Position numbers and translations under genes: made by a program. Shown in pieces: positions 25,712 to 30,432 of a stretch of 64,000 nucleotides of DNA; position 1 is the stretch's first letter; each line of letters begins with the position of its first letter. A model generated the notes under the pieces. It saw only the letters and a program-made list of their open reading frames with translations. It was not told the origin of the DNA and ran no database searches. This stretch comes from Cryobacterium sp. (GTDB taxonomy: Bacteria; Actinomycetota; Actinomycetes; Actinomycetales; Microbacteriaceae). Location of the stretch: positions 20,850 to 84,849 of the forward strand of contig JAHBSW010000008.1 of NCBI GenBank assembly GCA_019638935.1. The letters run 5' to 3'.

Positions 25712-25785
<74 letters not shown>

Positions 25786-25801
25786 CAAATGTGATGAGTC
25801 G

Positions 25802-26047: not shown

Positions 26048-26060
26048 CTGTCAGCCCGAC
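26048..26060 (+). repeat. Direct repeat, right copy (att-like)
   Basis: An exact 13-bp copy of the tRNA-Pro 3' end, 274 bp downstream of the original. Confidence 0.6.
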
Positions 26061-30299: not shown

Positions 30300-30308
30300 T
30301 GCTACACT
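30300..30308 (+). promoter_or_regulatory. Extended -10 promoter toward the tRNA-like RNA
   Basis: TGCTACACT (TGn plus TACACT) is an extended -10. TTGACT at 30286-30291 is too close (11-nt spacer) to be its -35. A transcript would start near 30315 and contain the hairpin and the tRNA-like element. Confidence 0.45.
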
Positions 30309-30320
30309 GGGAGGATAAAC

Positions 30321-30352
30321 AGAAACGCCTCGGCGACAACCGAGGCGTTTCT
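30321..30352 (+). other. Perfect 13-bp hairpin before the tRNA-like element
   Basis: AGAAACGCCTCGG (30321-30333) pairs with CCGAGGCGTTTCT (30340-30352) around a CGACAA loop. No T-run follows, so it is not a classic terminator. It could be a leader structure of the downstream RNA. Confidence 0.7.
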
Positions 30353-30361
30353 CAAAGAACT

Positions 30362-30432
30362 GGGGTACGCAGGTTCGCCGGGAGATCCTGAAAAAATTAC
30401 CGCGACGGGTTCAAGTCCCGTGTACTCCACCA
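30362..30432 (+). ncRNA. tRNA-like RNA without anticodon arm (tmRNA tRNA-domain-like)
   Basis: Acceptor strands GGGGTAC (30362-30368) and GTACTCC (30422-30428) pair over 7 bp with a G.U at the third pair. A discriminator A and encoded CCA follow (30429-30432). The T-arm is ACGGG-TTCAAGT-CCCGT (30405-30421) with a consensus loop. Only 36 nt separate acceptor and T-arm, too few for normal D and anticodon arms. The segment GGTTCGCCGGG resembles the D-loop of tmRNA (GG-TTCGAC-GGG type). G3.U70 plus A73 are known identity elements for alanyl-tRNA synthetase, so alanylation is conceivable (inference). Alternatives are a deleted tRNA-Ala or tmRNA remnant, or part of an attachment site. Confidence 0.6.

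Follow-up and report, generated by a model that had tools for sequence, protein, structure and literature searches.

The window, that is, the whole 64,000-nt stretch of DNA that was analysed, carries an rRNA operon recognised by Rfam, and the contig is therefore chromosomal. At 30362-30432 it also carries a 71-nt element that reads GGGGTAC, 36 nt, ACGGG TTCAAGT CCCGT, GTACTCC, A and CCA. An earlier note on this DNA had described a 7-bp acceptor with a G3.U70 pair, A73, an encoded CCA, a perfect T-arm and a 36-nt gap between acceptor and T-arm, and the sequence is as claimed. The features of the element and its upstream flank are as follows.

30303..30308, plus strand: possible extended -10 motif, TGC TACACT, picked by eye and speculative; upstream of the hairpin and the element
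30321..30352, no strand assigned: strong hairpin, terminator-like on the minus strand, directly upstream of the element
30362..30368, plus strand: 5′ strand of the acceptor stem, GGGGTAC, 7 of 7 pairs with 30422-30428; carries G3 of G3.U70; covaries in homologues
30369..30381, plus strand: conserved core GCAGGTTCGCCGG, where tmRNA has its D-loop; 13 of 13 letters the same in the phage loci L236, L244 and L245
30379..30381, plus strand: CGG, 5′ strand of a short P2-like helix, paired by hand with CCG at 30400-30402
30400..30402, plus strand: CCG, 3′ strand of the P2-like helix, paired by hand with CGG
30405..30421, plus strand: T-arm, ACGGG TTCAAGT CCCGT; T-stem 5 of 5 pairs; covaries in homologues
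30422..30428, plus strand: 3′ strand of the acceptor stem, GTACTCC, with U70; the same acceptor pair is found in Bacteroidales and phage tRNA-Ala
30429..30432, plus strand: discriminator A73 and encoded CCA, read from the sequence

The element is flanked by a gene for a 273-amino-acid protein and by a resolvase fragment. The 273-amino-acid protein has weak relatives only (24% and 28.7% identity over part of its length), and two further searches gave none. Among the neighbours tested no phage structural gene was recognised, only the resolvase remnant, and PADLOC detected nothing in five proteins of the putative island. The sole ARAGORN call in the window is a tRNA-Pro at 25712-25786; the element is uncalled. 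The last 12 nt of this tRNA-Pro gene (25775-25786) recur at 26049-26060, 274 nt downstream, possibly a small att duplication. Carriage by a mobile island, as proposed earlier, is consistent with the resolvase remnant and with this copy of the tRNA-Pro end, but 20 of 100 shuffles gave as many matches to that end at one mismatch or fewer, and this part of the proposal is weakly supported.

Between acceptor and T-arm there is neither the anticodon arm and D-arm of a tRNA cloverleaf nor, in 36 nt, an mRNA domain with tag frame and pseudoknots of the kind found in tmRNA, the RNA that rescues stuck ribosomes. The canonical anticodon slot reads AGATC CTGAAAA AATTA, where by eye three of five positions pair, and the fold is less stable when these pairs are forced (-13.4 kcal/mol) than when the slot is left open (-14.3 kcal/mol); the earlier statement that an anticodon arm is missing thus holds. 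A model with a P2-like helix, CG(C)CGG/CCGCG, reaches -21.3 kcal/mol versus -23.4 kcal/mol for the best fold. In the register of the four-sequence alignment described below, one of the three pairs of this helix is broken in the window copy, and alignment of the element to R1, a covariance model of related phage RNAs, deletes all six P2 pairs and leaves a short CGG/CCG core possible. Folded alone, the 71 nt are unremarkable (z -0.99); as the fold energy is ordinary it is no proof of structure, and the support for structure comes from covariation in homologues.

At curated thresholds Rfam has no match at the element. At a lax limit the overlapping matches are to mascRNA (16.1 bits) and to the T-arm of tmRNA (9.1 bits). 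With the Rfam tmRNA model, a comparison that the earlier note had suggested, only the T-arm matches, at 9.1 of the 47 bits of the threshold. A descriptor consisting of a 7-bp acceptor, 20-60 nt, a 5-bp T-stem with a TTCRANY loop, and CCA has a single match in the window, the element itself. Simulation with a third-order Markov model over 1.16e9 strand-bases gave five descriptor matches, or 5.5e-4 per 64-kb window, and none with one G.U pair or fewer. The rate holds for a single window and does not count in the number of windows screened, which leaves chance resemblance some room; yet that low rate, together with the compensatory changes in homologues, makes such an accident extremely improbable.

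The element might also be what a tRNA or ssrA gene left behind at an attachment site, in which case the pairing of the 5′ acceptor half would be fortuitous. The island-like neighbourhood would suit an origin of this kind, and the same genome does hold an exact copy of a tRNA-His end: C4:34918-34942 (L050:1592-1616) repeats the 3′ end of that gene over 25 of 25 nt, 91 nt downstream of the gene's end, in an attachment-like duplication. The host ssrA gene is split over contig ends, with its 5′ part on contig C56 and its 3′ end, GGTTCGATTCCCCCCATCTCCACCA, on contig C68. The earlier note had named identity with this end as the mark of an attachment remnant; the two are not identical, and ssrA ends from the genus were compared as well. 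Two genus relatives show two strong tmRNA matches per genome (G002, at L016 and L022, 1.4 kb apart; G006, at L017 and L021). A tRNA source would have to end in GGGTTCAAGTCCCGTGTACTCC, and no match was found in the element's own genome, in 60 relatives, in 396 genomes of the order or in 396 of the phylum. In its own genome the element's sole full-length match is itself. Its end recurs in the 60 relatives only in a tRNA T-arm (L012) and, judged by eye, in an apparently coding stretch (L013); the 396 order genomes gave no match to the end, and a pattern search of the 396 phylum genomes gave none either. A search of about 85,000 species genomes for the end GGTTCRANYCC-NNN-GTACTCCACCA gave nine occurrences: seven are Bacteroidales tRNA-Ala(GGC) genes with the GGGGTAC/GTACTCC acceptor, and two are not tRNAs. 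No tRNA or ssrA with the element's 3′ end was found in its own genome, the 60 relatives or the 396 order and 396 phylum genomes, the host ssrA ends differently, and the relic of an attachment site envisaged earlier is not supported. Such a relic would also leave the conserved 5′ core unexplained, and the covarying acceptors of the homologues speak against it; it can be set aside as a most improbable origin.

Homologues were detected in viral sequences. A GGTTCGCC pattern taken from the element and run on IMG/VR gave 15 stretches, two of them tRNA-Ser (L233, L235) and one (L239) without an acceptor in the range searched. The remaining 12, which represent nine distinct sequences, show a complete acceptor; of this the pattern had required only TCC and the discriminator. 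L236, L244 and L245 carry GCAGGTTCGCCGG exactly as in the element, directly after the acceptor, and measure 68-70 nt up to the discriminator; with the element they make up the GCAGGTTCGCCGG subgroup as defined in the present analysis. Eight of the 13 core letters lay in the search pattern. The five outside it match in three of the nine distinct hits (P 5.6e-7 under independence), and identity to the element outside the pattern is 31/45 for L244, 22/45 for L245 and 19/45 for L236. A last scan found no further member. L247 was kept out of the subgroup, as its acceptor is GCCGCAG/CTGCGGC and it resembles another tRNA. L238 and L243 have GGTTCGCCGG in common, preceded by a longer insert, and were kept out of the model R2 described below. 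L240 and L246, one sequence among the 12 with another GGTTCGCC form, have A3-U70 instead of G3.U70; L242 is a GGTTCGCC form too and scores 59.8 bits with R1.

The acceptors of the element and its three homologues are GGGGTAC/GTACTCC, GGGGCAC/GTGCTCC, GGGACTA/TAGTTCC and GGGCCTG/CAGGTCC, all with G3.U70 and A73. In the four-sequence alignment 98.3% of cells are paired, seven of 15 pairs are altered on both sides, and the covariation measure is 0.578 versus 0.00-0.11 when the alignment is slid. The acceptor and T-stem do covary, a point on which the earlier note had made the RNA depend. A covariance model built without the element, R2, scores it at 62.1 bits (E 1.5e-11), a value that is partly circular because the homologues were found with a pattern from the element. 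The next best of 64 matches is 40.7 bits, for L242, a tmRNA head of the phage family described below; the match list covers 43 sources, and the three training loci are not among them. With the same model other heads score about 21-39 bits. None of the three homologues combines a paired anticodon arm with the GCAGGTTCGCCGG core, ARAGORN calls no tRNA at any of them, and the Rfam tmRNA model has no match to them at threshold. In blastn searches the element's region gave only short matches to phages and plasmids; L244 gave only 24-27-nt matches to phages, and L245 gave none to plasmids.

The element shares its acceptor pair with alanine tRNAs of phages. In IMG/VR the pair GGGGTAC/GTACTCC with a T-arm occurs in 11 stretches, eight of which are tRNA-Ala (TGC or GGC) according to ARAGORN, at lengths of 69-79 nt (L084, L089, L090 and others). 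The three uncalled are L078 and L082, one sequence that looks tRNA-Ala-like by eye, and L087. At L078:3739-3811 and L082:7815-7887 the uncalled gene has a GGC loop and lies in a phage tRNA array. The acceptor thus serves alanine tRNAs elsewhere, and the element itself may be charged likewise. The element could then be a degenerate phage tRNA-Ala, short and with a decayed anticodon arm: L089 has by eye the same segment lengths (7+14+17+5+17+7), CTGAAAA stands in the element's anticodon-loop slot, and R1 ranks a tRNA-Ala (31.0 bits) over the element. In the short phage tRNA-Ala, unlike the element, an anticodon arm is present and carries TGC or GGC; the common core of the homologues was not seen in them, and ARAGORN calls no tRNA at the homologues. 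Moreover, R2 gives called tRNA-Ala 20-29 bits and L078 35.2, against 62.1 for the element. A decayed tRNA-Ala is thus very unlikely.

The third uncalled locus, L087, carries two tandem RNAs without anticodon that resemble tmRNA heads (873-940 and 941-1018) on one phage contig. The first unit matches the Rfam tmRNA model with 4 nt in place of the 310-position middle (40.7 bits, threshold 47, E 1.5e-13); the second combines a 7-bp hairpin with an acceptor, GGGGTAC/GTACTCC, identical to that of the element. A head pattern that fixed four acceptor pairs, G3.U70 included, and two T-stem pairs gave at least 120 stretches in IMG/VR. Among the 120 matches listed, the T-stem has 5 of 5 pairs in all 120 and the acceptor 7 of 7 in 116, 6 of 7 in two and fewer in two; 118 are head-like, with 100 distinct sequences among the matches listed. 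L105, a tRNA-Ser, and the similar L195 (acceptor 5 of 7) were not counted as heads. ARAGORN calls tRNA-Ser at L105, tmRNA at four of these 120 and nothing at 115. The four tmRNA calls (L102, L144, L171, L197), of about 320-400 nt, overlap an apparently complete head of 80-82 nt and are possibly misjoined.

When 17 heads are aligned, pairing holds in 99.0% of cells, both sides have changed in 12 of 18 pairs, and covariation comes to 0.798, compared with 0.153 after shuffling and no more than 0.107 after sliding. These 17, out of 46 sequences in set A3, were used for R1, because in the full sets A2 and A3 some acceptor starts had been put out of register by MAFFT; alignments A1, A2, A3, A5 and A7 were left out of the counts. 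All 67 distinct heads among the first 80 loci listed score 47.2-89.7 bits, the 17 training sequences included. With R1, canonical heads were also found in six cultured phages: LuckySocke (73.7 bits), pSt2308 (73.4), Shaeky (73.1), Jojan60 (71.7), BRock (67.3) and phiPsal1 (64.7). None of the six is annotated as an RNA, and a hypothetical open reading frame overlaps the one in Jojan60. The query L153 matches phage GiJojo at 97.5% identity. The Rfam tmRNA model at its curated threshold finds all 14 canonical heads tried (the six phages and eight IMG/VR loci) end to end with the middle missing, at 53.2-72.7 bits, and none of six variant forms (L221, L222, L236, L242, L244, L245). The first two of these variants are from the Microbacterium phages Quenya (L221:439-527) and Armstrong (L222:438-527), which carry an unannotated tRNA-like RNA of 89-90 nt near the right end. 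They score 36.7 and 33.7 bits with R1, have the acceptor GGGCCTG/CAGGTCC with G3.U70, and the Quenya form reads GGTTCGCC as in the element; the Quenya query is covered to at least 80% by 22 records. Across the six cultured phages and these two variants, found by similarity with a query that itself had G3.U70 rather than by pattern, position 3-70 is G.U and the discriminator A in 8/8, and the other acceptor pairs vary.

Several other phage loci do not belong here. The mycobacteriophages Shandong1, Squirty and Milly carry what look like attP copies of an ssrA end beside a Y-integrase and not tRNA-like domains (TLDs), and GenevaB15 and Reindeer have full tmRNAs. In the latter two (L091:3290-3703, L092:3283-3697) a GOLLD RNA lies beside the tRNA/tmRNA cluster. 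Of the related Stenotrophomonas phages Moby (L225) and Marzo (L226), Marzo has a tmRNA annotated in this region and Moby has none.

With R1 the element scores 28.1 bits (E 1e-5 in 5 kb), as against 47-90 for the heads; among other RNAs the model gives tRNAs up to 31.0 bits (a tRNA-Ala; a tRNA-Leu reaches 29.7) and full tmRNAs 24-28 bits, and the subgroup members L244, L236 and L245 score 32.2, 30.4 and 29.1. Being an outlier in both R1 (28.1) and Rfam tmRNA (9.1), the element appears to be a variant related to the canonical TLD-only tmRNA of phages and not a member of it. It has in common with the canonical form the G3.U70 acceptor, A73, the T-arm and the absence of anticodon arm and mRNA domain. 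The canonical D-loop is of GGnTTCGAC type; in the element GGTTCGCC takes its place, and P2 is weak. By its R1 scores the GCAGGTTCGCCGG subgroup as a whole stands apart from the canonical heads, on the fringe of the larger family in phages. Bacterial tmRNA (RF00023) also shares G3.U70, A73, GG/TTCG at the D-loop place, the T-arm and the lack of an anticodon, but the element, at 71 nt, is without mRNA domain and pseudoknots, and Rfam sees only its T-arm. The mascRNA/menRNA family (RF01684) of animals is alike in a tRNA-like fold with reduced arms, and the element falls well below its threshold of 42.5 bits. The mini tmRNA-like domain without mRNA part that the earlier note had proposed thus gains support from phage homologues with covarying acceptors and from the larger, related head family.

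By description the ssrA of Mycobacterium phage DS6A is alike as a phage-borne tRNA-like domain without mRNA domain (Hudson, Lau and Williams 2014, PMC4131195). Likened in the same way are the ∼65-bp tmRNAs without coding sequence of Mallomonadaceae plastids, which agree in size and in having no tag frame, and the tag-less mitochondrial tmRNA, both organellar (PMC11915505).

The relatives lie in a phage context. Terminase genes adjoin all three homologues: in L244 and L245 the RNA precedes the large terminase gene and shares its strand, and in L236 it is flanked by the genes for the two terminase subunits, which are on the opposite strand. A strong hairpin precedes the RNA in 4/4 core members (70-nt upstream folds of -24.9 kcal/mol in the window, -26.0 in L244, -41.0 in L245 and -19.4 in L236; L238, outside the subgroup, has -10.4). 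In the larger family, PHROGs searches on neighbours at 10 of 14 loci (L098, L102, L108 and L117 left out) place a head or packaging gene as the nearest larger open reading frame in four of the 10; three left and two right neighbours have no PHROG match. In the IMG/VR contigs L097 and L114 and in phiPsal1 (L213:3001-3079) the tmRNA head has the head protease gene on one side and the major head protein gene on the other. Among the matches listed, 51 of 67 distinct loci have no tRNA call, and in LuckySocke and Shaeky the head is among tRNA genes.

Such an arrangement raises the possibility that the fold is punctuation, marking an RNase P cut in a late transcript or belonging to the terminase or packaging region, with no trans effect on translation. 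Besides the terminase neighbours and the 4/10 head or packaging neighbours, two of those four between head protease and major head protein as in phiPsal1, the upstream hairpins in every core member would fit this role. RNase P would presumably have no need of the G3.U70 and A73 kept in 8/8 cultured-phage cases, though the query had them; nor does punctuation agree with the position among tRNA genes in LuckySocke and Shaeky, or with the L236 RNA on the strand opposite to terminase. This role is rather unlikely.

In the reading preferred here, to which a probability of about one half is given, the chromosome carries in the element a copy of a phage RNA of tmRNA type, of the GCAGGTTCGCCGG subgroup, that would act as an alanylated decoy of tmRNA. 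The phage-type RNA gene may serve to counter ribosome rescue, or be what is left of a gene that did. It would have originated as a copy of a small phage RNA gene for a tRNA-like domain without anticodon arm or mRNA domain. RNase P would trim the RNA, host AlaRS would charge it with alanine via G3.U70 and A73, and it would fold into a tmRNA-like elbow and, by competition, keep SmpB, EF-Tu or the stalled ribosome from tmRNA. Trans-translation would then be blocked, or end without a tag, during late phage expression. One partner is present: host smpB (202.6 bits) lies on C56, about 4 kb from the 5′ part of ssrA.

Phage DS6A ssrA is reported to encode little more than the TLD; a similar molecule reportedly inhibits tmRNA strongly whether chargeable or not, and inhibition is perhaps by titration of SmpB, for which Mao et al. 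2009 is cited (PMC4131195). Given this inhibition regardless of charging, alanylation may not matter. DS6A and two plastid cases are named as forms without coding sequence in PMC11915505. On the strength of these reports of the DS6A TLD and tmRNA inhibition (PMC4131195, PMC11915505), decoy action is the best-supported mechanism. The data establish the anatomy of the element, its homology and covariation with phage RNAs, the phage context of the relatives and the presence of smpB in the host; its transcription, alanylation, SmpB binding and effect are inferences.

In the present chromosome the copy is orphaned, and it could be in decay or have been domesticated. For this copy a silent relic comes close in likelihood: the identity would be right, and the copy would be decaying, untranscribed or unable to fold, and functionless now, a possibility of real but lesser weight. 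The element is an orphan on a housekeeping contig, without a phage structural gene among the neighbours tested and next to a decayed resolvase. Its P2 is by eye weaker than in L244, a sigma-70 scan found no promoter site for it, and the terminator-like hairpin sits between any upstream promoter and the element. Searched by pattern in 396 order genomes it is carried by its own genome only, with five others matching the pattern in one different stretch; R2 on 396 phylum genomes, under strict filters and with few candidates scored per genome, likewise found it in its own genome only. Against decay stand the intact acceptor (7/7), T-stem (5/5), A73 and CCA, and a core intact at 13/13.

In the literature open to the search, which lacks most subscription papers and includes PMC4383926, PMC9897764 and PMC9004378, DS6A is the sole phage named with a TLD-only tmRNA, and no wider phage family of this kind is described. 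It is tentatively suggested that free tmRNA heads (∼59-90 nt) form a widespread, little-noticed class of RNAs in many kinds of phage, which would block or hijack ribosome rescue, often from the late structural cluster. The element would then be a copy, in a bacterial chromosome, of a divergent subgroup of this class, and the host may have retained it for tuning or protecting trans-translation. ARAGORN is silent at 115 of the 120 such places listed, and six cultured-phage records have no RNA annotation of a typical head. As the Rfam tmRNA model finds the canonical heads, a survey is possible at once, although one that misses the six variant forms. Candidate RNAs are at hand in cultured phages of Streptomyces, Stenotrophomonas, Pontimonas and, in variant form, Microbacterium, and they raise the question of what role a message-less tmRNA has inside a capsid-gene cluster. 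If the class is as common as the scans suggest, an RNA capable of disturbing trans-translation would be a frequent feature of phages.
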